A stretch of 35,835 nt of DNA from Gammaproteobacteria bacterium (GTDB taxonomy: Bacteria > Pseudomonadota > Gammaproteobacteria > Pseudomonadales > Azotimanducaceae). The stretch covers positions 1 through 35,835 of the forward strand of contig VXYL01000103.1 in the NCBI GenBank assembly GCA_009846005.1, read 5' to 3'. Of this stretch, positions 1,326 through 18,973 are shown one piece after another; positions within the stretch are counted from its first letter, which is position 1; each line of letters begins with the position of its first letter. The position numbers were made by a program, and so were the translations under genes. The notes beneath the pieces were generated by a model. It was not told the origin of the DNA. It searched no databases and saw only the letters and a list, made by a program, of their open reading frames with translations.

Positions 1326-1919
1326 TCAATAGTCGCCAGCGCTGACGTATAGCTCCAGCAACGCGGCCTTGTCGGACTCGGACAGCGTGTCGAACTTCTT
1401 CTTCATCTTGTCGGCCATGCGCCGCTTGCCGCTCGTGAAATTGCGCAACTCGCGGGCCAGATAGTCGCGCCATTGCCCGGCGAGGAGGGCGTGGTCAGCG
1501 TCCGGTACGCTGCCGCCCTTGGGATGGCACTTGCCACACTTCCGAGAGTGGATCGCTGCGCCTCGGCGTGCCAGTTCGGCATCGAAGACCTGGTCGTGGG
1601 GTCGCCACTCCTGCGCGGAGTAGTAGACCGCTACGGTCTCGATCTCCTCATCCGACAATGCGTCCACGACCTGCTGCATGTCGTTCTCGGACCCGTCGTC
1701 GAGGGTGATGGCGCGCGCCTTGCGGAATCCGAGCCGGTAACTCTCCAACAGGTCCATGATGGCGAACTCGGAGAATCCGCCGATGGACGGAATATCCTTG
1801 GTTTCGCTGCGGCCGAACTCGCCATGGCAGTCGACGCATAGCCTGTCCGCTAGTTGCTCGCCCGTTTCCGCGACGATGCTGGACGCGAGACAACTGGCGA
1901 TAAAGAGCGCCAAACCCAC
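1326..1919 (-). CDS. Diheme c-type cytochrome (cytochrome c4-like)
   Basis: A small periplasmic electron carrier with two covalent haem sites. From a GTG start at 1919 it is 197 residues: a short hydrophobic export segment (about 2-17), CVDCH at 28-32 and CGKCH at 128-132, each followed by a Met-containing region that could give the sixth haem ligand (Met81 in the first domain). This two-domain layout resembles cytochrome c4. The start is uncertain: the GTG lacks a good ribosome site and leaves a signal peptide with no basic end, while the frame stays open into the repeat upstream, giving an ATG at 2003 whose added residues are repeat-encoded. The repeat may have displaced the original start. 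It follows the DUF1501 gene on the same strand and may carry electrons for that locus. Confidence 0.8.
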   Translation of the reverse strand: MGLALFIASCLASSIVAETGEQLADRLCVDCHGEFGRSETKDIPSIGGFSEFAIMDLLESYRLGFRKARAITLDDGSENDMQQVVDALSDEEIETVAVYYSAQEWRPHDQVFDAELARRGAAIHSRKCGKCHPKGGSVPDADHALLAGQWRDYLARELRNFTSGKRRMADKMKKKFDTLSESDKAALLELYVSAGDY

Positions 1920-1935
1920 GCAACGTCGCCCATAT

Positions 1936-2086
1936 CCGTAGGGGCGACCCTTGTGGTCGCCCGCCCGACCCTTGTGGTCGCCCGTCGGGATTCTGCTCGG
2001 CATTGATCCGGAGTTACGAGAATGCGGCAGCCTTCTCGATCGCACCCGTCGGGCGCACTGGAACGGGACAAGCCCGTCCGCTGCGG
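1936..2086 (+). repeat. Composite intergenic repeat, copy 2
   Basis: Second direct copy of the element at 1161-1316. Here the first block is partly duplicated: the unit 'CGACCCTTGTGGTCGCCCG' occurs twice in a row (1945-1984). Then comes the 56-base block (1984-2039) and 'ACGGGACAAGCCCGTCCG' (2063-2080). It fills the gap between the DUF1501 gene and the cytochrome c gene and reaches within 20 bases of the latter's proposed start. Confidence 0.7.
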
Positions 2087-2113
2087 TATTTCGAGCCAAC
2101 TCGCGCAGAGCCC

Positions 2114-3409
2114 CTAGGCGAAGAACGGGAAGTCTTCGGTGTTGTTGAACGGGAAGCGCATCGCCCCGGGCGTGTGCTCGATCCCCAGATACCGACGCAG
2201 TGCCTTGTGGACGTGCTTCGGGTAGATGATCGTGCCATCCCGATCGTGCCGTTCGAGGGTCGCGGGGCTGATGCGCTGGGCGAAATGCCGTTCATCGGTT
2301 TCGCCGACGACGCGGTTTGTCCACGGCTGGTTCTTCTCCATGATGACGTAGCTGCCGATCGGCCAGTGGTCCTTGCCGTACTTCGCGTTGTAGGCGTTGG
2401 TGCGGCCGAAGTCGGAACCCATCACCACGACCAGGCGGTCGGCGACGCCATGCTCCTCGGCGTAGTCCCAGAGGAAGTCCACGGAGTCGGTCAAGTTGCC
2501 CAGCAGCCAGTTGTGGTCGCGATCGTGATAGGCGTGCGTGTCGAAGCCGCCGAGCCAGAGGTCGGCACTCACCGCGACCCCGGTCTTGAAGGCGAGTACC
2601 GTGAGCTGAGCCTGACGACGCAGGTCGCTGTAGTAGTTGTAGTTTGCGCCGGTGTAGGTCTCGGGCTGTTCGAGCTGATCGTTGGGCGGAAGTGCCGCCG
2701 CGTACGCCGCGAGGCCGTCGGCGGCGGCGAAGGCCGACCGGTAGAACTCCCGGTTTCGCGCTTGGGTGGGCAGCAGATCGCTCCGGTCGGCGAGACGTCG
2801 TGCCGCCCTGGACCGATGCGACTCCAATGCCGCCCAATCCGCATCGCTGAAATAGCGCAAGTCTGCGTTCCAATGCGGAATCTGCGGCGTCGCGACGTTG
2901 CGCAGCAGGTCGGGATTGTTCATCCGCGTGAACCGGGCAACCCCGCCGGTTTCGGAGTATCCCCCGAAGCTGAGGTAGGGGACCGAGAGATCGGGTGCGT
3001 AGTGGGAGGCGAGGAGGGCCGTGGCGGTGGGGTAGCCCTCGGAGGTGCGCCCGCTCCAGTTGTGCACCACGCCCACGGTGTGCGAGTTCGTTTGCGCGTC
3101 GACGCCGTTGATGACGAGCATGCGTTCGAAGTACTTCTCGAAGAACGCCTCGTTGTTCGCGAACGGCGCGTAGGGGATGTTCCCCGCTTCACGGATGTCG
3201 GCGCTCTGCGCCCAGTTGTTGATGATCGGCTCGCCCGGGACGTTCGCCTTCGGGTCGCAGAAGCTCGTGGGATCCCAGCCGCCGTTCGCTTGCACGAATA
3301 CGTACAGCTTGCCGTCGTGGTGCGCGGCACTTGCCAACGGCAGGCGGAAGCCCATCGCTGCCGTACCGGTTGCCCCGAGCATGCCCTTGAGGATGGTCCT
3401 TCGGTTCAT
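2114..3409 (-). CDS. DUF1501 family Tat-exported protein
   Basis: A 431-residue protein of the DUF1501 family, which has an alkaline-phosphatase/sulfatase-like fold and no firmly known substrate. The N-terminus 'MNRRTILKGMLGATGTAAMG' is a twin-arginine-type signal. Family features include 'FVQANGGWDPTSFCDP' near residue 40, 'GGFDTHAYHD' and 'GSDFGRTNAYN' followed by 'GKDHWP', a string typical of the family. The start is the ATG at 3409: GAGG lies upstream and overlaps the stop codon of the preceding gene, which ends 11 bases before. DUF1501 proteins are usually encoded next to DUF1549/DUF1592-type haem proteins, as here, and the two are thought to act together outside the cytoplasm. The role in this organism is unknown. 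Confidence 0.9.
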   Translation of the reverse strand: MNRRTILKGMLGATGTAAMGFRLPLASAAHHDGKLYVFVQANGGWDPTSFCDPKANVPGEPIINNWAQSADIREAGNIPYAPFANNEAFFEKYFERMLVINGVDAQTNSHTVGVVHNWSGRTSEGYPTATALLASHYAPDLSVPYLSFGGYSETGGVARFTRMNNPDLLRNVATPQIPHWNADLRYFSDADWAALESHRSRAARRLADRSDLLPTQARNREFYRSAFAAADGLAAYAAALPPNDQLEQPETYTGANYNYYSDLRRQAQLTVLAFKTGVAVSADLWLGGFDTHAYHDRDHNWLLGNLTDSVDFLWDYAEEHGVADRLVVVMGSDFGRTNAYNAKYGKDHWPIGSYVIMEKNQPWTNRVVGETDERHFAQRISPATLERHDRDGTIIYPKHVHKALRRYLGIEHTPGAMRFPFNNTEDFPFFA

Positions 3410-3420
3410 CGTCGCGAGCC

Positions 3421-6400
3421 TCACAGGTACAGGTACCGGTAGTCCATCAACAGGTACGTCAGCACGACGTTCCAACTCCGCACCACTGCGGCGCTGTCGT
3501 ACGGGGCGGCTTCGTCGTACAGGATGCGGTTCACCCGCGGCCAGTCCCAGGTGTAGTAGCTGCCCCAGTCCCGGTCGTGCCTGATGAGCACGTCGTCGGC
3601 GATGCCGTCGAAGTAGCGGATGTCTGAACCCCAGTTGCAGGCGGTGTCGAAGAACCAGTTGTTGCCGGTCTCGCGGCGTCGCTTCCAAACGTCGACGAAC
3701 AGCTGGTATGCGTCTTCAACGTCTGGGGACTGGGCGCTCACCTCGACGCCGAGGAGCTTGCCGTAGAGTTCGGCGAGCTTGTTGCGGATGGCCCATGAAC
3801 CGGCGGAAGTCTCCGTATTCGACTCGACGGCTACATCGAGGAACGGCAATTGGCCACCGGCCAGATCCGCCCAGGCGATGACCTTCACCTCATGTGCGCC
3901 GCCTGACGGAATCGTGAGTGGCACACGCAATTCACAGGGCTGCCACAGGGCTCGATGGTCGGCTTCCGCCGAGCCGTCGCTGCTCTCGCTGGAGCCACAG
4001 CCTTCTTCGAGGTTCTCGAACTCGACTCTCGCCACGGTGGTGCCGCTCGCGTCGACCACCTCAAGGGCGTCCAGGCGCACGTTGCGATCCGCACCCGTTT
4101 CTTCGTTGTAGTAGTCGTTGGGGAACGACAGCCACACGGTATTCGTTCCTGACTGAAGATGGCCGCTCACCGTGATCGTCTCCCGCTCCTCGAAGGACTC
4201 GGCCTCGATCGAGAAGGAACCGCTCGCTTCCGCCACGGGGGAGACGTTCTTGTGGATGCCGCCGAACAAGCGCCGTTCCTGATCGGGCAATAGGTAGAAC
4301 TCCCGGAAAACGATGGGACAACTCGATTCCGCGGCATGGGTTCTTGCCACGCTGGCCATAACCGAGGTCAAGTCCCGGGATCGGTCGGTGATGCCGTTCG
4401 AGTCGATGCCGCCGTACAGCAGTCGGTATCCCCGCACGTCGGCCAGCGCATTGGTGTGCTGGCGGAAAGGTCGGGCGCTGGGGTGCTCCCAACGGCCCCA
4501 TTGGAATCCGGTGATCGTGTCGGTCTTGTGCGCCAGTTCCACCGGCGTCAGCAAACGGCCGGTGCCAGCGTGGGCCAGCGCCGCGCGCTGTATGGCCGAC
4601 GACTCGCCATCAACGGCCTCGGCGCGAGCCCAGTCGGAGAGCGCAATCTCCACCAACAGGTCCTTCAAGCTGTAGGGCTTGCCGTCGCCGAAGCCCACTC
4701 GGAAGCCCTCCGCGAGGTCGCGAACGTCGGCGGCTTGGGCGCTGGCAGCGAGCAGACGGGCGCCGAAGTCCGCATCCTGTTCATCCTGGGGCGGCTCGAT
4801 CACTTCCTTGCCCATGAGTGCGGGCCACCAGAACTTTACCGTCGCCTCCGCGAAACGCGGATCCTCGGCGATCTGCTTGGCGAGCCACTGCAGACCGTTG
4901 CCCGAGTCGCGCAACGACTCCCCGTCGAAGCCGGGCTCGCGCATGTCGCGGTACCACGTGTCACCGGATTGGTAGGGTGTTGCCGCGATCTCGAGTTTGG
5001 CCAATTCGTCGCCGGCTTGGTCGGCCCAGGCGGTAACCGCGGCCTCGTAGGTGTCGGTGGTCGGAATCTCCACGTCGACGCGCACCCCGCATCCGTTCAG
5101 GATGACCCAATGATCCGCTTCGCCGCCGTCTTCCGCGGCGACCGCTTCGCCGCAGTCTTGATTTTCCAAGGTGGCGAGGTCGGCTTCGAATACGACGTTG
5201 CGGTCACCGTCGAGCAGTTCGAGGCTGTCGAGACGCAGGTTGCGATCGATGTCGGTACCGTTTTGCCAGTAGTCGTTGGTGAAGGCGACGTAGACCCGAC
5301 TGTCGCGGTCTAGCCGAAGGCGTGCCGAGACGGTTTCCCGTTCCTCGTAGGAGGCTGCCTCGATTTCGAACTCTTCGCCAACCGGGTTCTTGTAGAACCG
5401 GTCCAGGGCGTCCAGTCCCCCGGGTTCGTCTCGGTACAGCCCGATGTCGCCGTAGTTTTGGAACGCGCCGGCGGCCGGATCGAGAACGGTATGGCAAACC
5501 GTGCAGTTGGCGTTCTTCATCGTCGGGTTGTTGGTATCCGCAAGGGCGACAGGGTCCGTCGTCCGCGAAGCGGCGTTCTCGATGTCCACGCCGAGGAAGT
5601 GGTAGTAGGTCCAACGGGCTCTCGCCCGGTTGCGGTTGGTGGCGGTGGTCGGATAGCGCTTCAGGAACACCAGTGTGTTGAGCACACCGGCGTGGGGAAT
5701 CGCCGTCTTGCCCTCGCCGGGCGAGAGGATTCGAAGACCGATATTGGGCTCGAACCGGGCCCGGTAGCCGGCCTTGTGCGTGAGGTAGTCCGTGATCTGC
5801 GTTGGCCGGAAATCGTGCACGTCTTCCGGATGATCCGGGGCGCCCGTGCCGGTATACGACTCCTTCGTCAACCGGTTCGCCATGACGTAGTCCGCGGTGA
5901 GCACCTCGGTGTACGGCAGGTCGTTCTCGGCGACATGGGCGATCAACTCCAGGGGTGCCCGGGCCACCCCGTACTGGACGGCGTTGTGCCACTCGTTGAA
6001 TTCTCGTCCTGCGCCGTTCTTGACCGCGGCGCCGCGGAGTCGATAGTACTTGTTGTCGAAGTGATAGAAGTGGCCGCGGTTTTCCAATGTGTTTTCGTCC
6101 ACGTACCGGTCCGTAAGCAGGCGATCGTTCGCCGCGCGGAGCAGGAACTCGTGGAACCGCGGCCCGGTCATCAGGTTCCGGATCGTTTCGCGCAACGCGT
6201 CGTCAGTGCCCACCTCAATGAACTCGTACTCGGCCGCGGTGGGGATCCGGCCCGCGAAGAGCAGCGCCGCCCGACGCAGCACCGTGCGCGGGGATGCCAT
6301 GGCGACACCGTCGAAGAGCATGTCGGCCGATGCCGAGACCACGGCCGCTTCGCGGCGCACCAGGTCGAGAAACCAAGCGACGTTCGCGAAGTCCTCGGAC

Positions 6401-8550
6401 CCGCGTGCCACCTGCTCCCCGCCACCGTGGCCGATGCCCTGGATCTTGTCCAGGAGCAGCGCGGCGCCGTCTTCCACCGTGGCGACGAAGTTCTTGACCG
6501 CCTCTAGGTTCAGGGCGCGGTGATCCGAGTTCGCCGTCGAGACGAACACCAGCCGGGTGGTACCGGATGCACCGCCCTCGACATGGCAGTTAACGCATTT
6601 CGACTCCAGAACCGGCGCGGCGACCAACGCTTCGAACACCTCGGTCGACGTCGCGTTCGCACCGCGTGCCGGGGCCGTGGACAGGTTGGTCAAATGACCG
6701 GTCGGGCTCGCGAGCAGGCTCATCACCATGATCGGCTGCTCGGATCGGACGTTGAGCTGCCATTTGCCTTGGCCGTCTCCCAAGGCGCCTTCGAGCCAGT
6801 CGGCGCCCGACTCGAGCTGCTGAGCCGTAATCGTCCGGGATTGCCCGCCGGGTACTGTTAGCCGCACCTCGCTGTTCGATGTTGCGCCGATACCGTCGAT
6901 GCCCGTGACGACGACCTCGGTGGGCTGGTCGGCGACGTTGACGAGCCGCAGTTGACTGACTTGGTCCTGGTTGCTCGCGGGATTGAACACGGCCACGCGG
7001 TGTCGTATGCCGATGCTTGGTGCGACATCGTGCATCGCCGTAAGGAACCCCTGCGTCGTTCGGACGTACGCCAGCACGTCGATGCCGAGGTCGCTTGCGA
7101 GAGCGAGTCGCCAGTCGCCTTGGCCGGAACCGACGCCGCCCGAAAGCCCTTTTTGGGGATTGCCGAGTTCGAGGTCCTCGGAGTTGAAGTGCGCCACCGC
7201 GTTTGCTGCGAGTGGCAACTGGACCTCCGCGTATTCCCAGTCGGAGTCGTCGAACGCGCGGATGCGGATCTCGCCCCGCTCGCCGGAGTGGTTGATGATC
7301 CGAACGAAGCCCTGCCGCTCGCCGCCAGCCGCCGGGAAGAACGGCACCGTGTGGACGCCGTCATGCAGGTTGGCGGGAGTCGTGGACAGGTTGGAAAGGT
7401 GACCCGTGGGGCTCTCGAGGAGACTCATCACTTCGATCGGTTGACCGGATTCCACGTCGAGCCGCCACTTGCCCGTGCCGTCGCCCAGTCCCTGGCGTTG
7501 GTTGCCGCCGAATTCCAGTTGCGTCGCATCGAGCGTCCATGCCGCGCTGGGCGGGATGTTGATCTGGACAACGCCGTGCGACGAGTGGCCGAGGTCGTCG
7601 ATGCCGCGAATGGTCACCTCGGCTTGCTCGTTCGCGGGGTTCACTATGCGCAGTCGGCTAACCTGATCGGCGTTGCTTGCCGGATTGAACGTGGGCAGGC
7701 GATGAACGCCGTCCACCGACCCGACGACATCGTGCATTGCCGTTAGGAAGCCGTCTGCGGTGCGCACGTACCCCAGCACTTCGATGTCGAGGTCGCTTTC
7801 GAGGGTGAGCCGCCAATCGCCGACCCCGGGACCGGCCCCGCTCGCGAGGCCCTTGGCGGCGTTGCCTCGTTCAAGGTCGCCGGAGTTGAAGTGGGCCGTC
7901 GCGCGGGCGTCGATGGCAAGCGTGATTGGACCGTGGACGTGGCCGGCGTCGTCGACTGCGCGGATGCGCACCTCTCCGCCCACGCCGGAGTGGTTGATGA
8001 CGCGTACGAAGCCTTCGCGGAAGCCGTCCGACGCGGACGGGAAGAACGGCATGCCATGGGTCGTGATTGCATTGGTCGACGTGGCGGCGCTGGCTGCAGC
8101 AGCGTGTTGCGGGCTTGCCTGCATCGAGGATGGCGGTTTAGTGGCGAATCCGGTGCCGCCTTTGGCCGCGATTGATCGTGTTCCAGATGCGGAAGGCGAG
8201 GCTATCGATCCTGGGCCGTTATGGGCCTGTAGTACTGGCCTCGACTCGCCTCGTCGCGACGCCGATGATGGGACGGCGCACATCATGACTGCGTCTGCCG
8301 GGCTCGCCGTCGGGGCAAAGAGTGTGTCGTGGACACCGGGATGCATCGGCATCGAACGGGGCCAGGGGGCGATATCCCGGTGCCCGGTCAGCGGAACCGG
8401 CTGGGTGATTTGCCAGGCGTCGGGCCCGGCCATGTCGGCGGGCCAAGAATCGTCGGCATGGTCCGGATCCGCCGCTAGGGACGCACCAACCCAAGCGCCA
8501 GTCGCAGCCGCCACCAGCGTGCGCCACAGAATCGCGTGGACACGGTTCAT
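3421..8550 (-). CDS. Giant secreted diheme protein with beta-repeats and CBM60-like modules
   Basis: A 1,709-residue exported protein of the planctomycete-type cytochrome group (DUF1549/DUF1588/DUF1592-like). Order: Sec signal (1-27); low-complexity linker (about 60-160); four alternating beta-modules A-B-A-B (about 166-628), with A marked by 'INHSG', 'HFNS.DLE.GN' and 'GFLTAMHDV', and B by 'FNPASN.DQVS' and 'PTGHL.NLST'; haem site CVNCH (652-656); a DUF1549-like core ('VLRRAALLFAGRIPTAAEYE'); second haem site CTVCH (1016-1020) followed by DP, as in DUF1588; a CBM60-like module (about 1056-1190, 'FTNDYWQNGTDIDRNLRLD'); more core; a second such module (about 1445-1575). CBM60 modules bind carbohydrate with calcium, so a glycan partner is plausible but inferred. 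The start has AAGGGA just upstream. It is probably co-transcribed with the DUF1501 gene and diverges from the decaheme gene 108 bases away. Confidence 0.9.
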   Translation of the reverse strand: MNRVHAILWRTLVAAATGAWVGASLAADPDHADDSWPADMAGPDAWQITQPVPLTGHRDIAPWPRSMPMHPGVHDTLFAPTASPADAVMMCAVPSSASRRGESRPVLQAHNGPGSIASPSASGTRSIAAKGGTGFATKPPSSMQASPQHAAAASAATSTNAITTHGMPFFPSASDGFREGFVRVINHSGVGGEVRIRAVDDAGHVHGPITLAIDARATAHFNSGDLERGNAAKGLASGAGPGVGDWRLTLESDLDIEVLGYVRTADGFLTAMHDVVGSVDGVHRLPTFNPASNADQVSRLRIVNPANEQAEVTIRGIDDLGHSSHGVVQINIPPSAAWTLDATQLEFGGNQRQGLGDGTGKWRLDVESGQPIEVMSLLESPTGHLSNLSTTPANLHDGVHTVPFFPAAGGERQGFVRIINHSGERGEIRIRAFDDSDWEYAEVQLPLAANAVAHFNSEDLELGNPQKGLSGGVGSGQGDWRLALASDLGIDVLAYVRTTQGFLTAMHDVAPSIGIRHRVAVFNPASNQDQVSQLRLVNVADQPTEVVVTGIDGIGATSNSEVRLTVPGGQSRTITAQQLESGADWLEGALGDGQGKWQLNVRSEQPIMVMSLLASPTGHLTNLSTAPARGANATSTEVFEALVAAPVLESKCVNCHVEGGASGTTRLVFVSTANSDHRALNLEAVKNFVATVEDGAALLLDKIQGIGHGGGEQVARGSEDFANVAWFLDLVRREAAVVSASADMLFDGVAMASPRTVLRRAALLFAGRIPTAAEYEFIEVGTDDALRETIRNLMTGPRFHEFLLRAANDRLLTDRYVDENTLENRGHFYHFDNKYYRLRGAAVKNGAGREFNEWHNAVQYGVARAPLELIAHVAENDLPYTEVLTADYVMANRLTKESYTGTGAPDHPEDVHDFRPTQITDYLTHKAGYRARFEPNIGLRILSPGEGKTAIPHAGVLNTLVFLKRYPTTATNRNRARARWTYYHFLGVDIENAASRTTDPVALADTNNPTMKNANCTVCHTVLDPAAGAFQNYGDIGLYRDEPGGLDALDRFYKNPVGEEFEIEAASYEERETVSARLRLDRDSRVYVAFTNDYWQNGTDIDRNLRLDSLELLDGDRNVVFEADLATLENQDCGEAVAAEDGGEADHWVILNGCGVRVDVEIPTTDTYEAAVTAWADQAGDELAKLEIAATPYQSGDTWYRDMREPGFDGESLRDSGNGLQWLAKQIAEDPRFAEATVKFWWPALMGKEVIEPPQDEQDADFGARLLAASAQAADVRDLAEGFRVGFGDGKPYSLKDLLVEIALSDWARAEAVDGESSAIQRAALAHAGTGRLLTPVELAHKTDTITGFQWGRWEHPSARPFRQHTNALADVRGYRLLYGGIDSNGITDRSRDLTSVMASVARTHAAESSCPIVFREFYLLPDQERRLFGGIHKNVSPVAEASGSFSIEAESFEERETITVSGHLQSGTNTVWLSFPNDYYNEETGADRNVRLDALEVVDASGTTVARVEFENLEEGCGSSESSDGSAEADHRALWQPCELRVPLTIPSGGAHEVKVIAWADLAGGQLPFLDVAVESNTETSAGSWAIRNKLAELYGKLLGVEVSAQSPDVEDAYQLFVDVWKRRRETGNNWFFDTACNWGSDIRYFDGIADDVLIRHDRDWGSYYTWDWPRVNRILYDEAAPYDSAAVVRSWNVVLTYLLMDYRYLYL

Positions 8551-8658: not shown

Positions 8659-9702
8659 ATGGCTGAGCCGGCGAGGCTCGCGCAGGGGCCGGTGCGGGAC
8701 CCCGCGTCGGCGAGGCGTGCGGGCGCCTTGGGTTGGCTCTGCGCACTGCCCGCCGTTTTGGCCGCCTTGCTTGCCGGCGCCACGGAACAAGCCCACGATA
8801 CGCTCCTCGACAAGCTCGCTGCGGGCGACTATTCCCGGCGCGGTGCCGACACCTGCTTGGGTTGCCACGACGAGGAAGAGCCGTTCCCGACCCTCGACGT
8901 GTTCGTCACCGTGCACGGGCATCCCGAAGTCGACGGTTCGCCATTCGAGATGGACGAAACCGCCGAACTTCCGGCCGGCCTGCAATGCGAGGCATGTCAC
9001 GGCCCCGTCGGGGACCACGCCCGGCAGATGCTGCCGGACGGCGTGGCGCGGGAGCCGGTCCTCAATTTCGGCGCTCGGGGCAACGCGGAGGCCTCCCTGC
9101 AGAACGATCTGTGCCTGCAATGCCACCGCACCTATGAACGAACCCGGTGGGAGGGGAGCGCGCATGAACTTGCCGGTATGGCGTGCGCCGACTGCCATCG
9201 TATCCACAGCGAAACCGATGCAGTCCGAACGATGTCCGGACAGAACGAGACCTGCTGGGGGTGCCACCGCTCCGTTGCTGCCGACGCGTTGAAACGATCG
9301 GCCCACCCGCTGCGCGACTCCCAACTCGTCTGTCGTGACTGCCACGATCCGCACGGCACGGACAATCGCAAACTGAACGTCAGGACCACCGCCAACGAAA
9401 CCTGCTTCACGTGCCACGCGGAACTGCGCGGGCCGCATCTGTGGGAGCATCCGCCTGTCGTCGAGGACTGCACGATCTGCCATGCCCCGCACGGGTCCAA
9501 CCAGCCGGCGCTACTCCTGCGCCGCCCGCCTCAGCTCTGCCAGGCGTGCCACTCCTCGGTAGGCCACCGCAGCTTTGCCCAGGTTCCCGGGCAGCTGCCG
9601 CCCCGGCCCACCTCCGAGTTTCTGCTCGCCAAGGCGTGCCTCAACTGCCACGCCGAAGTGCACGGCTCCAACCATCCTTCGGGCAACCTGTTTCGTCGAT
9701 GA
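8659..9702 (+). CDS. Decaheme c-type cytochrome (MtrA/DmsE/PioA type)
   Basis: A periplasmic multihaem cytochrome that in this family threads into an outer-membrane barrel and passes electrons across the outer membrane. From the ATG at 8659 it has 347 residues, a hydrophobic signal segment (about 22-41) and exactly ten CXXCH sites, at residues 66, 110, 152, 176, 199, 225, 249, 271, 294 and 327. Ten haems and about 330 residues match MtrA/DmsE. No clear ribosome site precedes the ATG; an in-frame GTG at 8632 is too close to the proposed -10 to be likely. The stop overlaps the next start by four bases (ATGA), tying it to the MtrB-type porin. The DmsE/MtrA/PioA choice cannot be made from sequence, because the usual terminal reductase or surface cytochrome is absent from this window. 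Confidence 0.93.
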   Translation: MAEPARLAQGPVRDPASARRAGALGWLCALPAVLAALLAGATEQAHDTLLDKLAAGDYSRRGADTCLGCHDEEEPFPTLDVFVTVHGHPEVDGSPFEMDETAELPAGLQCEACHGPVGDHARQMLPDGVAREPVLNFGARGNAEASLQNDLCLQCHRTYERTRWEGSAHELAGMACADCHRIHSETDAVRTMSGQNETCWGCHRSVAADALKRSAHPLRDSQLVCRDCHDPHGTDNRKLNVRTTANETCFTCHAELRGPHLWEHPPVVEDCTICHAPHGSNQPALLLRRPPQLCQACHSSVGHRSFAQVPGQLPPRPTSEFLLAKACLNCHAEVHGSNHPSGNLFRR

Positions 9703-11789
9703 AACGGCGCACGATGGGTAGCACGGTTTGGGCGATGGCGGTCCTCGCCGTTGCGATGAACGCCTCCGCAGCGAGCCGTGTGTTCGAACCGAACTACGCC
9801 AAGGTGAATACCGATCGCTGGCGCTGCCGCCTGTGCCCGTTTGAGCTGGCATACGGCAGGGAAGCGACGTGGACCGTCGGGGCCGTCCGCGTCGCCGACG
9901 CCAGTGCGCGGTTCGGCCGCGACAGCGGATTGGACGAAGCCGGGGCGAGCGCGGACTTGGGCCTCCGCTATCGGGGGCGCGACGCCAACGGCCGAATGAC
10001 CGAGGTCGCCATGAGCCGAATGGGGCTCGATTCCCGTACCGCGGGCATCGCCGTGGAGGGCAATCGCAGTAGCGTGCGCCTCGACCGTCGCGAGATACCG
10101 CGCAACATCTCGCGAGACAGCGTGACGCCCTTCGCGGGGGTTTCAAACCTGACGTTGCCGCGCGAGTGGCAAGGGGCGTTCGATACGACACGAATGACCG
10201 GGCTTGGCGAAGCCGCCCGCTTCGACCAAGGCACACAGCGTCGCTTGACCTCGGCGCGGGTGCGGGTGGAGCCGCTGCCCGGTTGGTGGTTGCAGGCGGG
10301 CTACTCGCGGGAGACGAAGTCAGGCACGGAGGCGACCTTCGCGGACTTCCTCTATCGGTCGACCGGCCTGCCCAAGCCGGTGGGATACGTGACCGATGAG
10401 TTCACGACCAGTGCCGGCGTTGAACGCGCCGCCTTTGCGCTGGCCGCGGAGTTGCGCAATGCAAGGTTCCGCAACCGGCACGGTGCGCTCGACTGGCAGA
10501 ATCCTTGGCCGGGGTCCGTACTACGGGGTCGGAAAGCGCTGGCTCCGAACAACGATGCCCGTTCGTTGTCGTTGGTTTCGAGAATGGCGATCGGCCCGCG
10601 CGCCGCCGCCCATGCGACGCTGACCTGGGGTGAAGCCCGCCAGGACGACGTTTTCGAGCCGTACACGACGAACCCACGTCTGCGGATCGATCCGCTCCCG
10701 GCGACGAGCCTCGACGGGCGCGTACGATCATTTGCCGGCACGTTCACCCTTGTCGCTCGGCCCACCGACCGGGTACGGCTGATCGTCGCGCGCCGGCAAC
10801 GCGAGCGCGACAACCAGACCGCCGCATTGACGTTCACCCCCGTACGCGGCGATGCGTTCTCTCCCGGTGCGGTCACCAGCCGTGCCCTTGACCTGAACCG
10901 GTCCACGACCGAACTCGGCTTGACATACCGGGTGGCACCAAGGGTCGGACTTGGCGTCTATTCCGAATCGAATCGTGTTCGCCGCGACCCGGCGGAGGTC
11001 ACGGCGAACCGGGAAAGACGGCACCGGATCGAACTCGGGATCAACGGCTGGCGCGGAATTCGCGCCAGGCTGGCGATCGCCGAGGCACAACGCGGGGCGT
11101 CCGAGTTCCGACACACGACCAGCAACAACCCGCTGACCCGGCGCTACCACCAGGCCGCCCGTGACCAGCGCTCGTGGCGGGCAAGGGTCGGGTACGAACT
11201 GGACCGGGTAGGAGCGTTCTTTGAACTCGTCGCCGAGTGCCGCCGCAACGCCTACCGCGAATCCGCGCTGGGCCTGCAACGAGATGGCAACTGCACGCGC
11301 GGCGGCGACGTGACCTACTCACTGACGCGGAACGTGTCCATTGCGGCATTCCATTTTGAGCAGGAGACGAACGCCGCGACGGCCGGCCGGGTCGGGTATA
11401 CAGGATCCGCATGGCGGTACTCGACCGTGGATACGGTGGAAACGGCCGGCATGGGTCTCGAGGTCGGAGAGCTTCTCGATGCCAAGCTCAAGCTCTCGGT
11501 GGACTACGTCAGATCGCTTGGGACGGGAGCCTACGCAACCGAACTGACGCGAGAGTCGTTGCCGTTTCCGGATCTCGTTTCGAACCACACCTCGGTGGAT
11601 GTCCATGCGCGGTACCAATGGCGTGAGCAGAGCGCGTTTGTGCTCCAGCTACGCTACGAGCGCTACAAGGGAGAGGATTGGGCTCTCGTTGACACGCTGG
11701 ACGCGATCCGCAACGTCGTGACGTTCGGCAACGCCTCGCCCCGGTACGCGAACCATTTGATCGGTGTATCTTACGAGGCGTCCTTCTAG
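9699..11789 (+). CDS. MtrB/PioB-type outer-membrane beta-barrel
   Basis: A 696-residue outer-membrane protein expected to form the barrel that sheathes the decaheme cytochrome. It has a signal peptide (1-25, ending NASA-A), then 'DRWRCRLCPF' with a CXXC pair at Cys43 and Cys46; a CXXC near the mature N-terminus is a known trait of MtrB. The rest alternates short amphipathic strands rich in Arg, Tyr and Thr with turns, as in large barrels of this family. Its ATG overlaps the stop of the decaheme gene, so translation is probably coupled, and there is no separate ribosome site. Family members are usually near 680-700 residues. The C-terminus 'LIGVSYEASF' ends in Phe, the usual signal for barrel assembly. 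Gene order MtrA-MtrB is conserved in known conduits. Confidence 0.9.
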   Translation: MKRRTMGSTVWAMAVLAVAMNASAASRVFEPNYAKVNTDRWRCRLCPFELAYGREATWTVGAVRVADASARFGRDSGLDEAGASADLGLRYRGRDANGRMTEVAMSRMGLDSRTAGIAVEGNRSSVRLDRREIPRNISRDSVTPFAGVSNLTLPREWQGAFDTTRMTGLGEAARFDQGTQRRLTSARVRVEPLPGWWLQAGYSRETKSGTEATFADFLYRSTGLPKPVGYVTDEFTTSAGVERAAFALAAELRNARFRNRHGALDWQNPWPGSVLRGRKALAPNNDARSLSLVSRMAIGPRAAAHATLTWGEARQDDVFEPYTTNPRLRIDPLPATSLDGRVRSFAGTFTLVARPTDRVRLIVARRQRERDNQTAALTFTPVRGDAFSPGAVTSRALDLNRSTTELGLTYRVAPRVGLGVYSESNRVRRDPAEVTANRERRHRIELGINGWRGIRARLAIAEAQRGASEFRHTTSNNPLTRRYHQAARDQRSWRARVGYELDRVGAFFELVAECRRNAYRESALGLQRDGNCTRGGDVTYSLTRNVSIAAFHFEQETNAATAGRVGYTGSAWRYSTVDTVETAGMGLEVGELLDAKLKLSVDYVRSLGTGAYATELTRESLPFPDLVSNHTSVDVHARYQWREQSAFVLQLRYERYKGEDWALVDTLDAIRNVVTFGNASPRYANHLIGVSYEASF

Positions 11790-11806
11790 CTGCTCGACGG
11801 GTCGAC

Positions 11807-14800
11807 GTGGCGAGCGAGAACACGTCGGTGGGGTTGTGGCGCCGCGGTCAAAATGGCAATCCGCTGGAATCGAGCCGTTGGCTCGCCTTCGGCTCGGTCG
11901 TATTGGCATGCACGGCGGTCACCACCGCGGAATCGGAACCCAGCCCGGCTAGGGCGCCCGACGACACCGGCCAACGCCGCGGTCCTGCGGGCACCGCCGT
12001 CGAGGAGGTGGTCGTGACCGGTTCGCGCATCCGCCTTGATCCACTGACAGCGCGCGATCTGCTCTTCTACGTCGGCGAGGATGAACGGCACCGATCGGGG
12101 TTGAGCTCGCTGGGGGACCTGCTCGCGCGCTTGCCCGTGTCCGGGTCGCCACTGTCCACGCGCTTCAACAGCAGCGGCAACTTCGGCTTCCCCGCGGACG
12201 GCGGCGGCGTGGCTGCGGGCGCCTCCCAGGCCGACCTGCGCCATCTGGGCGCCAAACGCGTGCTGGTGCTGGTGGACGGCCTGCGCTGGGTGAACGGTTC
12301 CTCCGGCAGCGGCGTATCCGGGGCGACCGACCTCAACACCATCCCGGCGAGCGTGGTTGAACGCATCGAAGTGCTGCGCGACGGCGGGTCGGCGATCTAC
12401 GGTTCCGACGCCATCGCCGGGGTCGTCAACGTCATCACCCGTAGCGCCGAGGGCGCATCGGCCAGCGTGCATGTCGGCACCCACGAGAACGGCGGCGAGA
12501 CGCGCACCGTGGAGTTGTCTGCTGGCGGCGGGTGGGCTGCCACCCGTGCCTCCGCCCATTTCGCCTACACCGACCAAGCGCGGGTCAGCGCCGCAGACCA
12601 CGATCAATCCCGTTGGCCGAAGCCGGGCACCGGCGTGAGCCATGGCAGCACCTTCACCCCGCAGGGGCGGGTCATCTTCGCCGATCCGAATACCGGCCGT
12701 TTCGTGAACTGCGCGTTGAACGCCGGCGTCGTGGGCATGCCGACCTACGATCCGACGGACCCGTGCGGGCCGAACGACGACTACCATCCGTGGAGCAACG
12801 CCGACCGGTTCAACTACGCGACCTACAACCTGGTGCTCACGCCATCGACGCGAACCGGTGTCTTCGGTCGTCTGGAGCACGAGCCGACCGACAGTCTGCG
12901 TCTGAACCTGCGCGCGTTCTTCAACCGACGCGAATCGATCAATCAGGCGGCCCCGGAACCGGTGTGGGCGGGAACGCTCGGGGAGACCGGCAGCCTGATG
13001 GACGAGATCGTCATCGACGCCGACAACCCCTACAACCCGTTCGGGTTCGACGTAGGTCCGGGCGGCTTCCTCACCCGACGGCCCCTGGAGAGCGGCCCGC
13101 GGATCTTCGAACAGGATGTCGCCACCCGCTACGTCACCGTGGGCATGGAGGGGGTGTGGCCCCTGCCTCGGACGTTGCTCTGGGACTTGAGCGTCGTCTG
13201 GTCGCGCAATGTTGCCGAACAGACAAAGCACGGCGCTCACAACGCCCGACGGATGCTCGAGGCCTTGGGTCCGCCCGCGGATTGCGCGCGCGCCTCGGGC
13301 TGCGTTCCTCTCAATATGCTGGGCGGCCAGGCCAGCGGCAGCGGCACCATCAACGAGGCCATGCTGGAGTGGATTGGGTTCGTACAGGAAGATTCGAGTT
13401 CGCAGACCCTTAGAGGGCTCGTCGGCAACGTCACTGGCGAACTGATGGCGTTGCCCGCCGGCACCCTAGACTTCGCGGTCGGCTTCGAGCGGCGCGAGCA
13501 GGAAGGCCGGTTCGATCCGGATCCGGTGGTCGCCGCCGGCGACACCGCGGGCCTCCCGGCACAACCCACGGCAGGCGGATACACGGTGACCGAACTCTAT
13601 GCTGAACTCGAAGCTCCGCTGCTAGCGGACACCGCCGCCGCTGACTTGATCGACGTGTCGGCCGCCGTGCGCCACTTCGACTACAGCACTTTTGATAGCG
13701 GCACCACGGCCAAGGCGGGGATGCGCTGGCGGCCGTTTCCGGCTCTCACATTCCGCGCATCGTGGGCGGAGGGGTTCCGCGCACCCAACATCGGTGAACT
13801 GTACGGTGGCCTGACCCGGCTGGATGCCGCCATCTCCGATCCATGCGCGAGTTTTCTAGGAACCAACGTCGGTCGCAACGTGATCGACAACTGCGTCGCC
13901 CACGGAGTCCCAGCCGATGGCAGCTATACGCAGTTCGGGGGTCAAATCAGCGTGCTCACCGGGGGCAACGAGTGGCTCGAACCCGAGACATCCACAAGCC
14001 AGACACTCGCGCTTGCCTGGAGTCCGTCCTGGCTCGTCGGGCACCCGTGGGTCGACGAGTTTCGCGTCGAGCTGGCCCGCTATGCCCATGATGTCGACGA
14101 CGCCGTCACGGGCTACGATGCCCAGGCCGTTTTGGACGGCTGCTACCGGGGCCGGGTAGCCGTGCTCTGCGACCTCATCGAACGCAACGAACGGGGTGGC
14201 ATCGCCCGGTTCCGCAACACGCTGTTCAACGTCGGGTCGGTGGCGACCCGGGGCTGGGACTTCGGACTGGTCGTCGGCGACGGATCGAAATGGCGGTTGC
14301 AATGGCGAGGTACGCGCCTCGCCGAGTTCACCGAGCGCCTGAAGGACACCGCCGGGCGGGTCGTCGAGACACGTCGGCTCGAAGGCCGGACCGTAGCCGA
14401 CCGCGGTAAACCGCAGTGGAAGTCGTCACTGGCGGTCGAGCGCCGCGGCGAACGGTGGCGTGCGACGTGGACGATTCGCTACATCGATGCCATGACCGAG
14501 CGCTGCAGCGACTTTCTGGACGGCTCACCGGACAGCCTGACGAACCTCGGTCTGTGTTCGATGCCGGACCACGACGACAACACCGCGTCTCGGAATCGGC
14601 TCGCCAGCCGGACGCTGCACGACGTTCAGGCGCGCTACACGTTGCCGCCGATGGACGGTGCCGTGACCGTGACGGTGGGCGTCAACAACCTCCTCGACCG
14701 GGATCCGCCGATCAGCATGAGCGCGTCCCTCAACGGCTACGACGCCTCCGTCTACGACATCCCCGGCGGTCGGTTCGCGTACTTCCGGCTGGAGTACTCG

Positions 14801-14812
14801 AGCAACCGCTAG
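11807..14812 (+). CDS. TonB-dependent outer-membrane receptor
   Basis: A 1,001-residue receptor that would import a substrate across the outer membrane using TonB energy. After a hydrophobic export segment (about 25-40) comes a TonB-box-like '[10 protein letters not shown]' (66-75), then plug-domain hallmarks '[10 protein letters not shown]' and '[19 protein letters not shown]', followed by a long barrel with repeated aromatic strands such as '[20 protein letters not shown]'. The type resembles receptors used for larger substrates such as glycans or peptides rather than classical siderophore receptors, but the ligand is unknown. The start is GTG, 17 bases after the porin stop, with only a weak upstream GACGGG; the spacing suggests one transcript with the porin. 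Its presence directly after an MtrAB pair is unusual. The C-terminus '[10 protein letters not shown]' lacks the usual final Phe. Confidence 0.93.
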
Positions 14813-14840
14813 GCCCGTCCTGTGTTCGGGAAGCCGGCAC

Positions 14841-14862
14841 GGGCGACCATTTAGGGTCGCCC
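14841..14862. terminator. Palindromic hairpin between convergent genes
   Basis: GGGCGACC and GGTCGCCC form an eight-base stem with a six-base ATTTAG loop. It sits between the convergent receptor and dioxygenase genes and could end transcription from both sides, though it lacks a T run. The arms match the hairpin block of the repeats at 1161 and 1936, so it may be a solo copy of that block. Confidence 0.5.
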
Positions 14863-14931
14863 CGACGATTCCGTCATGCGATTCAACGGATTGCGGATTT
14901 GTTCCGTCGAAGGCGTAGCGTCGCTCGATTG

Positions 14932-15516
14932 TCAGATCACGATGTCGAGTTCGGCCGCGACGCTGTTGTCGTCGATGCGTTCGAGGCTCACGGTCTGCAG
15001 GGCGGCCGCTTTCTCCGACCGGGCGAATCCGCGCGCGCCCCCGAGTTCCTCGAAATAGATCTGGCTTGTCAGGAGTTCGGTGCGGTCCCGCCACACCTTG
15101 TAGTGGATATGCTGTGCCGGTCGTGCCGAATATCGACCCGGCACGTAGGTGCGGAATCGGAAGCGCGCCTCGGCATCCGTCGATGCCTCGCCCCAATACA
15201 GGAACTCGTCCATGAGACTGTCCTGTTGGCGGTCGCGCGGGTGCTTGTAGCGACCGTTCGGATCGGCCTGCCAGATGTCGACGAGTACGCCGGGGCGCGG
15301 GCGTCCGTTCGGTGCCAGGACCCGGCCGCTCAAGTGCAGTACTTCGGCCTGCGGTTCACCGACGATCAGGTCGTGGTTCGGGTTTCGGGGTCCACGCGGA
15401 TAGAACGGCCCCGTAAAGTCGCGAGGCGTCTTCGGCAGTTCGGTGCCGGCCGCGACCGGCAGGCCCGGCAGCAAGCCGACGGTCGCGGCCGACTGTACCA
15501 GTCTTCGACGATTCAT
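14932..15516 (-). CDS. Exported intradiol ring-cleavage dioxygenase-like protein
   Basis: A 194-residue protein of the intradiol dioxygenase family (protocatechuate 3,4-dioxygenase beta / catechol 1,2-dioxygenase fold), which opens catechol-type rings between the two hydroxyls using Fe(III). The four expected iron ligands are all visible: Tyr90 in 'DPNGRYKHPRD', Tyr129 in 'PGRYSARP', and His136 and His138 in 'QHIHYKVW'. The N-terminus 'MNRRRLVQSAATVGLLPGLP' has a twin-arginine-type signal, so the enzyme probably acts outside the cytoplasm, unlike the classical pathway enzymes. AGG lies five bases before the ATG. No other beta-ketoadipate genes are nearby. The substrate is unknown; exported members of this family have also been tied to protein- or plant-derived phenolics. 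Confidence 0.87.
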   Translation of the reverse strand: MNRRRLVQSAATVGLLPGLPVAAGTELPKTPRDFTGPFYPRGPRNPNHDLIVGEPQAEVLHLSGRVLAPNGRPRPGVLVDIWQADPNGRYKHPRDRQQDSLMDEFLYWGEASTDAEARFRFRTYVPGRYSARPAQHIHYKVWRDRTELLTSQIYFEELGGARGFARSEKAAALQTVSLERIDDNSVAAELDIVI

Positions 15517-15619
15517 AGGCCTATTCCCGTTGCCGCGCGGCGCCTATGCCGATCATACGCCCATGCGCGGGATTCCCGTCGCACGGCGCCACGACAATCC
15601 CACGACAATGCCGTGCTGT

Positions 15620-15634
15620 ATCGGTTCAACCGAT
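15620..15634. promoter_or_regulatory. Perfect 15-base palindrome, possible operator
   Basis: ATCGGTT-C-AACCGAT is a perfect inverted repeat with a single-base centre, 63 bases before the start at 15698. Size and position suit a dimeric regulator such as a GntR- or TetR-type protein. A CATACT at 15642-15647 could be a weak -10, which would put the palindrome over the -35 region. No regulator gene is nearby. Confidence 0.3.
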
Positions 15635-15697
15635 GCTCTGTCATACTGGCCGATCATTTTTCGACAACCCGCGCACACCGGAGTTAGGGAGAAGGAC

Positions 15698-16003
15698 ATG
15701 AGCGATTTGGACGGCACCTGGGAGACGGTGACCAATACGCCGATGGGGCAGCAGAAGGCGACGGTTGCGCTGCAGACGGACGGCGACAGCCTCTCGGGCA
15801 CGATGTCGAGTTCCCAGGGTACCGTCGACATCAAGGACGGCTCGGTCGATGGCAACACGGCGAGCTGGAAGGTATCGATCACGAGCCCCATGCCCATGAC
15901 CCTGGAGTTCAGCGCCACCGCCGACGGGGACGCCATCAGCGGCAACGTGCAGCTCGGCGCGTTCGGCAGCGCGAGCTTCACCGGAACCCGTGCGGCGGGC
16001 TGA
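15698..16003 (+). CDS. Small beta-rich protein of unknown function
   Basis: A 101-residue protein with no signal peptide. It consists of short alternating strands such as 'TWETVTNTPMGQQKATVALQ' and 'GDAISGNVQLGAFGSASFTG'. The repeated pattern 'DGDSLSGTMSS', 'DGNTASWKVSI', 'DGDAISGNVQL' suggests a small beta-barrel or calycin-like sheet, of a kind often found as a stand-alone protein or a tail on other enzymes. The start is very clear: GGGAGAAGGAC lies directly upstream of the ATG. Nine bases separate its stop from the GST-like gene, so the two are almost certainly co-transcribed. I do not recognise a specific function; binding of a small hydrophobic molecule is only a guess from the fold. Confidence 0.75.
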   Translation: MSDLDGTWETVTNTPMGQQKATVALQTDGDSLSGTMSSSQGTVDIKDGSVDGNTASWKVSITSPMPMTLEFSATADGDAISGNVQLGAFGSASFTGTRAAG

Positions 16004-16012
16004 GCGGCGGTC

Positions 16013-16990
16013 GTGAGCGGCACGTACATCGTCATCGGCTCGGAGGAGTCGCCCTACTCGGTCAAGGTGCGTTCGTACTTCCGCTACAAGGGCATCCCCC
16101 ACGAGTGGCGGGACAGGAGTCAAGCAGCCGATCTCTACGCCAGGCACGCGCGACTTCCGCTCATTCCACTTGTCGTGACGCCGAAAGACACCGGTATCCA
16201 GGATTCGACGCCCATCATCGAAGCGATGGAGGCGAAGTTCCCGGACCCGAGCATCCATCCGGCCGGCCCGGTGTCGCCTTTCGTCTCCGCCCTGCTGGAG
16301 GAATTTGGCGACGAATGGGGCAACAAGTGGATGTTCCACATGCGCTGGGCGCGGGAGATCGATCAGGTCACGGTGTCGCGCCGTTTCGCCGCCAACGGTG
16401 GCGCCGCAGATATCGATGCCACGGCCCAGACCATTCGGGAACGCATGGTCCCTCGGGTCTGGTTCGTAGGCTCAAATGAAGTGACGGCGCCCCAGATCGA
16501 GCAGAGCTTCGCCGACGTGTTGCCGCTCCTCGATGCCCATCTGGCATCGCGTCCCTACCTTTTCGGTGCGCGGCCGTCATTCGGCGACTTCGGCCTTTGG
16601 GGACAGATCTACGAAGCGGGCCGCGACCCCACCGCCGGCGCCTTGGTCGCTGGCGCCGCGAACGTTGTCGCTTGGATAGAACGCATGCTCAATCCGGAGA
16701 ACCTCGGCGAGTTCGAGGACTGGGCGGCGCTTGAGACCACGCTGCTGCCGATCCTCGAGGACCAGGTGGGCGGCGTCTTCCTGCCGTGGGACGTGGCTAA
16801 CGCCAGGGCCATCGCGGATGGCGCGGACGAGTTCGACGTGACGCTCAAGGGCGTGCGTTGGAACCAAAAGCCGCAGAAGTACCACGCCCGGAGCCTTGGC
16901 GCCCTCAAGGCGAAGTATGCCGAGGTCGCAGGCGATGCGGCATTGGATGCCGTGCTCACCGCCAGCGGCTGCAAGCAGCATCTCACGTAG
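16013..16990 (+). CDS. Glutathione S-transferase-fold protein
   Basis: A 325-residue cytoplasmic protein with an N-terminal thioredoxin-like GST domain ('ESPYSVKVRSYFRYKGIPHEW', then 'DSTPIIEAMEAKFPD', the usual glutathione-contact Ser in a 'DST' setting) and an all-helical C-terminal domain with 'RPYLFGARPSFGDFGLWGQ', the conserved helix-cap region of GSTs. It is about 100 residues longer than a typical GST, with the extra length mostly C-terminal. It could conjugate glutathione to a hydrophobic compound or act as an isomerase. The start is GTG, nine bases after the small beta-rich protein, with a weak GAGCGG upstream. Convergent with the barrel-like gene that follows. Confidence 0.85.
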   Translation: MSGTYIVIGSEESPYSVKVRSYFRYKGIPHEWRDRSQAADLYARHARLPLIPLVVTPKDTGIQDSTPIIEAMEAKFPDPSIHPAGPVSPFVSALLEEFGDEWGNKWMFHMRWAREIDQVTVSRRFAANGGAADIDATAQTIRERMVPRVWFVGSNEVTAPQIEQSFADVLPLLDAHLASRPYLFGARPSFGDFGLWGQIYEAGRDPTAGALVAGAANVVAWIERMLNPENLGEFEDWAALETTLLPILEDQVGGVFLPWDVANARAIADGADEFDVTLKGVRWNQKPQKYHARSLGALKAKYAEVAGDAALDAVLTASGCKQHLT

Positions 16991-17066
16991 GGGACGGGCC
17001 AAGGAGTCTGCGCCGCAGGGAAGGGCTCGAAGTGCCGTTGCTGGGCGCGGAGTCCTGGGACGGTGG

Positions 17067-17118
17067 GGGCGGGGGCCAGACGGCGAGTAACGAGCCGTCT
17101 GGTGGTGTTGTCCCGCCC
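17067..17118. terminator. Strong two-part hairpin between convergent genes
   Basis: A perfect nine-base stem, CCAGACGGC / GCCGTCTGG (17076-17084 with 17094-17102), is flanked by GGGCGGG (17067-17073) and CCCGCCC (17112-17118), which can pair as an outer stem. It lies between the convergent GST and barrel-like genes and is a good bidirectional terminator candidate, though it lacks a clear T run. Confidence 0.55.
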
Positions 17119-17144
17119 CGACGGTGGCCGCGCCGAATCCACGG

Positions 17145-17972: not shown

Positions 17973-18027
17973 AGGACCGATCATAGCCGCCGCGTTAAGC
18001 AATGCGCGCTTGGGAAGGAGTGCCCTC

Positions 18028-18807: not shown

Positions 18808-18833
18808 CGGCAGCGCCGAAATCCCGGAGAAGC

Positions 18834-18902
18834 GAGAACCGTCCGACCGCCTGACGCCAATGGGATCGGCGTCGATACTGCTTGAGCGGCCGGACGGTTC
18901 TC
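18834..18902. other. Nested inverted-repeat element in a convergent gap
   Basis: The arms GAGAACCGTCCGACCGC (18834-18850) and GCGGCCGGACGGTTCTC (18886-18902) pair at 16 of 17 positions. Inside the 35-base loop, GACGCC (18853-18858) and GGCGTC (18868-18873) form a second stem. A long stem with an inner hairpin is more elaborate than a simple terminator. It could be a bidirectional terminator, a structured RNA or a MITE-like palindrome. No match to a known RNA family is evident by eye. Confidence 0.6.
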
Positions 18903-18973
18903 ATAGGCCGATTTGGATAATCTGCACGCAGCGACGACAGTCACTACAGTAGAAAGTAACGCCGTCGCTCCAC

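Follow-up and report, generated by a model that had tools for sequence, protein, structure and literature searches.

MtrAB conduits, which pair a decaheme c-type cytochrome (MtrA) with an outer-membrane beta-barrel sheath (MtrB), are usually interpreted through the surface cytochrome MtrC and through metals. Here we describe such a pair in a gammaproteobacterium of the family Azotimanducaceae, encoded on a stretch of 35,835 nucleotides (GenBank assembly GCA_009846005.1, contig VXYL01000103.1, positions 1 to 35,835; hereafter the window), which is contig C83 of a draft genome, G000, of 4.96 Mb and 97% completeness. In this lineage, a monoheme domain that we call H1 and a diheme c-type cytochrome are linked to MtrAB of the window's type and co-occur with it. 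In the window, H1 is part of a large diheme protein, BIG, encoded divergently from mtrA. We put the probability at roughly one half that H1-domain proteins have replaced MtrC in this conduit, here in the form of BIG with a neighbouring DUF1501 protein that carries a twin-arginine translocation (Tat)-type signal, and that electrons are more likely to flow inward than outward.

Several described systems lie close to this locus. In the Mtr complex of Shewanella baltica (PDB 6R2Q; PMC7198977), MtrC is carried across the outer membrane by the type II secretion system, and a lack of MtrC leaves the outermost heme of MtrA exposed. MtoAB and PioABC, known from Fe(II) oxidation, contain an MtrAB-type pair without MtrC, for which inward electron flow has been proposed (PMC8805035, PMC10654088). 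DmsEFAB, which serves extracellular dimethyl sulfoxide (DMSO) and iodate reduction, combines a DmsE-family decaheme cytochrome with an MtrB-family barrel. Finally, PSCyt genes and porin-multiheme clusters have been reported from Verrucomicrobia as separate features, the clusters not being homologous to those of Shewanella (PMC5615132); this was the only paper to surface in the open-licence literature that brings PSCyt together with extracellular electron transfer. Neither a pairing of MtrAB with PSCyt/H1 proteins nor one with a TonB-dependent receptor was found in that literature, and the main text of PMC8805035 contains no mention of 'TonB', 'DUF' or 'planctomycete'.

The conduit and the divergent gene run

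A first-pass annotation, made from the sequence alone, had proposed an MtrA-MtrB type electron conduit on the basis of a 347-residue protein with ten CXXCH sites and an overlapping barrel gene with the CXXC of MtrB. Gene calls, family profiles and structural alignments agree with this description (Table 1). The CXXCH motifs of MtrA lie at residues 66, 110, 152, 176, 199, 225, 249, 271, 294 and 327, the match to TIGR03508, the profile of DmsE-family decaheme cytochromes, reaches 260.6 bits where the cut-off is 192.2, and residues 25-347 of the protein align with chain A of 6R2Q (E 1.9e-82). The start of mtrB overlaps the mtrA stop by four bases (ATGA); its product has a single CXXC near the N-terminus, scores 335.7 bits against PF11854 and 280.1 against TIGR03509 (cut-off 240), and aligns over residues 28-691 with chain B (E 2.6e-40). 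As judged from these alignments, the full-length match of both subunits rules out a chance resemblance, and the pair is an MtrAB-type porin-cytochrome conduit, predicted to form a membrane-spanning, electron-conducting complex. A plasmid search with MtrB gave no match. A scan for promoters found 0 sites (0.5 in shuffled sequence) and one for terminators found 4 (4.5 in shuffled sequence); with sites close to the shuffled level, it is the gene spacing that argues for co-transcription across positions 9,702 and 11,800.

Table 1. Features of the window discussed here (signal peptides judged by eye).
Feature	Position	Strand	Description
Diheme c-type cytochrome (PdsA-like)	1326..2099	-	two CXXCH; Cytochrome_CBB3 and Cytochrom_C over cut-off
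DUF1501 protein	2114..3409	-	Tat-like (RR) signal; PF07394 52 bits (cut-off 27)
BIG, diheme PSCyt3/CBM60 protein	3421..8550	-	1,709 residues; signal-like N-terminus; CXXCH at 652 and 1016
H1 monoheme domain of BIG	6325..6657	-	residues ~632-742; segment common to heme proteins adjoining type I MtrAB
MtrA/DmsE-type decaheme c-type cytochrome	8659..9702	+	347 residues; signal-like N-terminus; ten CXXCH; TIGR03508; 6R2Q chain A
MtrB/PioB outer-membrane beta-barrel sheath	9699..11789	+	696 residues from overlapping ATG; PF11854; TIGR03509; 6R2Q chain B
TonB-dependent receptor	11807..14812	+	1,001 residues; GTG start; Plug and barrel domains; lineage-specific neighbour
Intradiol-dioxygenase-like protein	14932..15516	-	PF00775 71 bits; signal-like N-terminus; not claimed as part of the conduit

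Comparisons were drawn from two samples. At the level of the order, 293 genomes, including the window's own, gave an MtrB match in 17; within the family, MtrA was found at E 1e-20 or better in 46 of 150 genomes, which the MtrA and H1 counts are both taken to cover. We call type I the 21 genomes (22 loci) whose MtrA is closest to that of the window (at least 58% identity, E at most 1.4e-79); this boundary is our own cut, the next MtrA match being 48% identical (E 1.8e-78). With L051, L054, L055, L057 and L063 added, the type I set comprises 27 loci on 28 contigs, the locus of G403 being split, and layouts over these 27 were counted with a tblastn panel at E 1e-6. Other types of MtrA occur in 25 family genomes, and 19 loci of these types were inspected (L144-L162). 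The nearest named relatives (L051-L065) are metagenome-assembled genomes (MAGs) titled Gammaproteobacteria or Pseudomonadales. Their labels RHO, COS and IRC suggest sponge sources, going by the names; the main text of PMC8163846 carries no RHO or COS labels that would confirm such an origin.

The same annotation had described the conduit as lacking a surface cytochrome, which holds for MtrC. At E 0.001 the window's draft genome gave no match to its family (TIGR03507), and none of the 21 type I genomes has one over cut-off, G343 showing a single sub-threshold match. MtrC was over cut-off in all five same-family control genomes, which prove that the search works and do not give a rate, because they were picked from loci already showing MtrC. 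Among the other MtrA types, MtrC was seen in 8 of the 19 loci, and at order level 10-heme proteins of MtrC size were present in 9 of the 16 MtrB neighbourhoods besides the window's. CymA, the NapC-type quinol dehydrogenase that serves as feeder (PF03264), is missing from the window's genome and from 19 of the 21 type I genomes, in a search directed at this one quinol-cytochrome link; it was found in four of the five chosen MtrC-positive controls. The two type I genomes with a CymA-type tetraheme cytochrome (loci L138 and L139) both lack H1 near MtrA, and their loci branch next to the outgroup in a tree of MtrA and MtrB (27 type I loci and 5 outgroups, several inner nodes having support of 53-86). 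The locus resembles Shewanella MtrCAB in the full-length alignment of both subunits and the adjacency of decaheme and barrel genes, and differs in that type I genomes have no MtrC over cut-off, mostly lack CymA and have H1/PSCyt heme proteins linked to the conduit instead. It shares the pair without MtrC with MtoAB and PioABC and differs from them in its diheme cytochrome and its linked PSCyt and DUF1501 genes, again without CymA; the Pfam scan, which covered 24 window proteins and not the rest of the genome, revealed no high-potential iron-sulfur protein (HiPIP) domain of the PioABC kind. Nor did it reveal among these 24 proteins the molybdopterin DMSO reductase domain that would be expected of DmsEFAB, to which the TIGR03508 match and the MtrB-family barrel otherwise liken the pair.

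BIG is separated from mtrA by 108 bases. It begins with repeats (residues ~150-630), followed by H1 and by a PSCyt3 part that holds the second heme; it also has two beta-rich inserts. The match to PSCyt3 (DUF1588) reaches 29 bits (cut-off 27) and that to CBM60 52.7 bits in two stretches (cut-off 28.2), while PSD4 (DUF1592) stays at 18.3 bits against a cut-off of 23.3, the BIG homologue of L023 reaching 26.1. Across 19 aligned sequences, both heme sites are fully or almost fully conserved, and the motif of CXXCH 1016 is invariant. A model of residues 633-1709 has a mean predicted local distance difference test score (pLDDT) of 78.3 and places the inserts at ~427-558 and 808-944 of the modelled part; together with the CBM60 match, these modelled inserts point to glycan binding by BIG. 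The Pfam scan recognised no reductase domain in the protein. A fold search with the model was set aside, as its five hits with E below 0.001 have a template modelling score (TM-score) of at most 0.10 and those below them show only a weak beta-sandwich likeness; a PDB profile search gave a single, not meaningful match (E 0.13). The N-terminal repeats belong to a large repeat family of this genome: BIG has 27 matches there, and the repeats are found in numerous long frames, one of them of 2,471 residues. For this reason H1, not the whole of BIG, serves as the marker of co-occurrence below.

The DUF1501 gene follows BIG after 11 bases, as the conserved partner gene beside PSCyt3; we assume its start at 3409 in place of the longest-frame start at 3688. 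Its RR is invariant in 14 of 14 aligned sequences, and its model (mean pLDDT 62.9) has a weak likeness to sulfatase and alkaline-phosphatase folds. The run ends with the diheme cytochrome, the start of which is uncertain (2099 to ~2003). BIG thus resembles planctomycete-type cytochromes (PSCyt3/PSD4) in its PSCyt3 match, its carbohydrate-binding module and its conserved neighbour gene, and differs from them in its gammaproteobacterial lineage, its additional N-terminal repeats and its linkage to MtrAB. The diheme cytochrome is comparable to PdsA of mtrCAB clusters in being a diheme c-type cytochrome beside mtrAB; this likeness is one of description, and the name PdsA is taken from PMC8805035.

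Linkage and co-occurrence of H1 with type I MtrAB

Of the 27 type I loci, 19 contain H1 or the PSCyt region after it, 15 have DUF1501 near mtrAB, and in 25 the diheme cytochrome adjoins mtrAB. The eight loci without H1 or PSCyt include two on short contigs (L057 and L143) and one with only 3.2 kb upstream (L131). By genome, 14 of 21 have a copy of H1 no further than 10 kb from mtrA, in each case at 4.3 kb or less, where 0.39 would be expected from H1 copy number and genome size under an assumption of independence that relatives violate. Across the family, H1 occurs in all 21 genomes with type I MtrA, in none of the 25 with other types and in 17 of the 104 without MtrA (Fisher test, with no correction for ancestry). 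Within genus g3, one genome (G076) has neither H1 nor MtrA and four (G325, G393, G413 and G420) have both, while G404, 64% complete, has H1 but no MtrA; in g130, the two are both present in G331 and both missing from G303.

The linkage spans at least four gene arrangements. BIG is divergent in the first; in the second (L126 and L127) a protein combining REP and H1 is encoded immediately before mtrA on the same strand, which is the position of mtrC in mtrCAB; in the third (L134-L137) the H1 gene is convergent and downstream, and in the fourth (L133) it is on the same strand further upstream. H1 is the segment common to BIG and the shorter repeat-H1 proteins of L126, L127 and L137. L055 and L056 lack BIG and have in its place a PPC-domain protein with a divergent, H1-like heme, and in L023 the genes for the diheme cytochrome, MtrA and MtrB run divergently from BIG and DUF1501. 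In the tree, H1-linked loci fall outside the CymA branches, with apparent losses (L129, L130/L131 and L140). This comparative evidence from sequence lends strong support to the divergent diheme protein as a probable associate of MtrAB.

Food for debate is whether this association is one of electron transfer at the cell surface. MtrAB might work without any dedicated surface protein, soluble compounds exchanging electrons at the exposed MtrA heme, with BIG and DUF1501 serving a separate carbohydrate metabolism in the periplasm. An exposed heme should permit the reduction of soluble substrates when MtrC is missing (PMC7198977), and MtoAB and PioAB, likewise without MtrC, are thought to work this way (PMC8805035, PMC10654088). 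PSCyt-DUF1501 pairs are also seen at loci where the stretch examined has no MtrAB (L042 and L046-L049). Several further observations favour this explanation or otherwise weigh against a replacement of MtrC by H1 proteins. In seven of the 21 type I genomes, the 10 kb on either side of MtrA contain no H1 (G359, G323, G412, G419, G308, G331 and G420); all seven carry H1 elsewhere, and contig ends limit the view in G420, G419 and partly G308. Type I genomes carry 1-8 copies of H1, the domain also occurs in the 17 genomes without MtrA, and the statistics ignore shared ancestry among 21 genomes that represent six genera. Neither a surface anchor nor an MtrA-H1 interface nor an enzyme site came to light, the fold search of the BIG model gave no credible whole-domain match, and the BIG homologue in L023 matches CBM60 below cut-off. 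Moreover, He et al. (PMC5615132) predicted a periplasmic or cytoplasmic location, not an extracellular one, for the PSCyt proteins of Verrucomicrobia. A conduit without a surface partner nevertheless has to account for an H1-MtrAB linkage far above chance in several arrangements, for the co-occurrence in 21 of 21 genomes against 0 of 25, and for BIG, DUF1501 and the diheme carrier forming one divergent gene run in the window, and we regard it as rather unlikely.

The receptor and other neighbours

A TonB-dependent receptor of 1,001 residues had been noted 17 bases past mtrB, and its frame is as described, with the Plug (PF07715) and TonB beta-barrel (PF00593) domains over cut-off. Among the 23 NCBIfam families listed for it none passes its cut-off, hence no cargo class can be named. 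The first-pass annotation had further made a new layout of MtrA, MtrB and this receptor depend on whether relatives retain the trio, and in general they do not: the receptor stands directly 3' of mtrB on the same strand in only 5 of the 27 type I loci (window, L051, L124, L054 and L125). All five fall in one subclade of six loci that are syntenic from the diheme cytochrome to a glutathione S-transferase (GST)-like gene (window, L051, L052 (= L123), L053 (= L124), L054 and L125). In the sixth, L052, the slot is an assembly gap (a run of N) with scraps of a receptor, and we do not claim its absence there. Other receptors in the type I loci, as seen in searches that divergent ones could escape, lie past a convergent gene (L137), ~5 kb upstream in the diheme run (L140) or further away (L060/L129 and L138).

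Even within the subclade the receptor changes. That of L053 is 78% identical to the window's, and that of L051 87% identical over 772 of 1,001 residues, with a broken frame, a run of N and an uncertain state. The receptors of L054 and L125 share 88% identity with each other, 61-62% with one in G255 and only 39% and 38% with that of the window, despite BIG (72% and 71%) and a downstream dioxygenase (86% and 83%) that remain similar to the window's. The closest orthologue outside the subclade (72%; 68% in direct alignment) belongs to G076, a genome without MtrB and MtrA. No receptor label was seen in the 16 order-level MtrB neighbourhoods besides the window's, several of them on short contigs, nor a receptor in the 19 same-family loci of other MtrA types, by searches that divergent receptors could escape; L023, a same-family locus at order level, has none in the stretch examined. 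Receptor candidates are numerous at first look (26 in G105 and 50 in G000, a loose count and not one of genes), and therefore a few chance neighbours of mtrAB are to be expected.

We accordingly discarded the receptor as a conserved general partner of MtrAB, in view of the 5 loci in 27, the two receptor subfamilies, the broken frame in L051 and the G076 orthologue in a genome without MtrA. From its distribution in these sequences, it is a local, changeable neighbour. It could still be a functional third part of the system where it does occur, binding or importing a chelate, siderophore or redox carrier that is oxidised or reduced at the mouth of MtrAB. The gaps between the mtrB stop and the receptor (17 bases in the window, 15 in L053 and 8 in L054; 164 in L051) are compatible with one transcript, and the slot holds a receptor in at least five of the six syntenic loci though the subfamily changes, which could mean a changed cargo. 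In L140 (positions 11482-19457, in G323), a receptor gene overlaps that of a 1,519-residue BNR/LRR protein, upstream of the run of diheme cytochrome, mtrA and mtrB; because this is one independent receptor in the same gene run, a local, lineage-specific role is conceivable. Set against the distribution described above, a functional part for the receptor seems very unlikely to us. Where the outside partner of the conduit is concerned, two candidates had been named, something bound or imported through the receptor and the large divergent diheme protein: the latter fits the comparative data best, and the receptor does not stand as a defining partner.

Two genes downstream are confined to, or kept in, the same subclade. 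The intradiol-dioxygenase-like gene is present in all six syntenic loci and in none of the 21 other type I loci, some of which are on short contigs, and a GST-like gene (16013-16990 in the window) is kept in all six, the window included. A link of the redox system to aromatic compounds through these neighbours is possible.

Other observations concern single loci or other MtrAB types. MtrB-like fragments beyond the mtrB gene of L063 (13999-14450) are perhaps the remains of a duplication. In L065, a frame on the minus strand (402-2690), divergent from the diheme cytochrome, opens like a molybdopterin oxidoreductase, as far as its first residues go, and has no obvious signal peptide. A diheme protein of 1,107-1,131 residues follows mtrB in L056 (13127-16522) and L055 (10639-13962); in the L056 protein, a YncE-like propeller is over cut-off, and matches to MauG and CBM4_9 are weak and stay below it. 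In another same-family MtrAB type, L149 encodes at 12597-13910, after mtrB, a ferric-reductase-like flavocytochrome (PF01794 with FAD and NAD domains) with no MtrC label nearby. Genes of 435-437 codons occupy this slot in five loci (L149, L146, L147, L150 and L152), of which L149 was the one scanned; in loci of this kind the flavocytochrome is possibly a different electron feeder.

The putative electron path and its meaning

If H1 proteins have taken the place of MtrC, BIG would be exported, with type II secretion as a possible route; the secretin of that system (GspD) is over cut-off in all 11 type I genomes tested of the 21. Its beta modules would contact a carbohydrate-like matrix, and its H1 heme would exchange electrons with the outermost heme of MtrA. 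Under inward flow, BIG would act as an extracellular oxidising enzyme or electron collector, and MtrA would carry the electrons across the outer membrane within the MtrB barrel and hand them to the periplasmic diheme cytochrome, from which they would reach heme-copper oxidases (COX1 was found in 20 of the 21 type I genomes, with a miss in G411). The surface location of BIG, its docking, the direction of flow and the substrate are what we infer. The lack of CymA, the feeder that oxidises quinol, together with the retained diheme cytochrome makes inward flow appear likelier than outward.

The same linkage of H1 also counts towards a path on which electrons leave the cell, the diheme cytochrome (reduced by bc1 or another dehydrogenase) feeding MtrAB and BIG serving as a terminal reductase on a glycan surface, with oxygen, peroxide or an organic quinone as examples of acceptors. 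The outgroup loci L024 and L025 have a homologue of the diheme cytochrome, a tetraheme cytochrome and a 10-heme protein of MtrC size beside MtrAB, which is the arrangement of an outward system. The propeller protein beside MtrB in L055 and L056 is also in line with outward flow, the L056 copy being weakly MauG/peroxidase-like (E 5.6e-4, below cut-off). Against outward flow stand a BIG in which no reductase domain is recognised and the distribution of CymA, which 19 of 21 genomes lack and which the other two combine with an H1 that is not near MtrA; we consider outward flow quite unlikely.

A more specific version of the inward path is that H1-PSCyt proteins are glycan-binding redox enzymes of the cell surface, attacking or tapping a glycan or phenolic matrix outside the cell, with MtrAB and the periplasmic diheme cytochrome connecting them to aerobic respiration. 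We offer this as a tentative suggestion, on present evidence a doubtful one. If it were true, these bacteria would possess a direct electrical link across the outer membrane from polymer oxidation to the respiratory chain, and the pairs of PSCyt and DUF1501 genes would receive their first function.

The conduit itself is established knowledge (PMC7198977), and its tie to PSCyt/H1 proteins appears to be the new part. The lineage keeps a conduit without detected MtrC and mostly without CymA, and retains PSCyt-type heme proteins instead. For the PSCyt family, the linkage provides a concrete hypothesis, namely electron exchange outside the cell or at the outer membrane. If this is true, porin-cytochrome conduits would serve more roles, and would do so in aerobic, possibly host-associated bacteria, the link to a host being suggested by the names of the MAGs.

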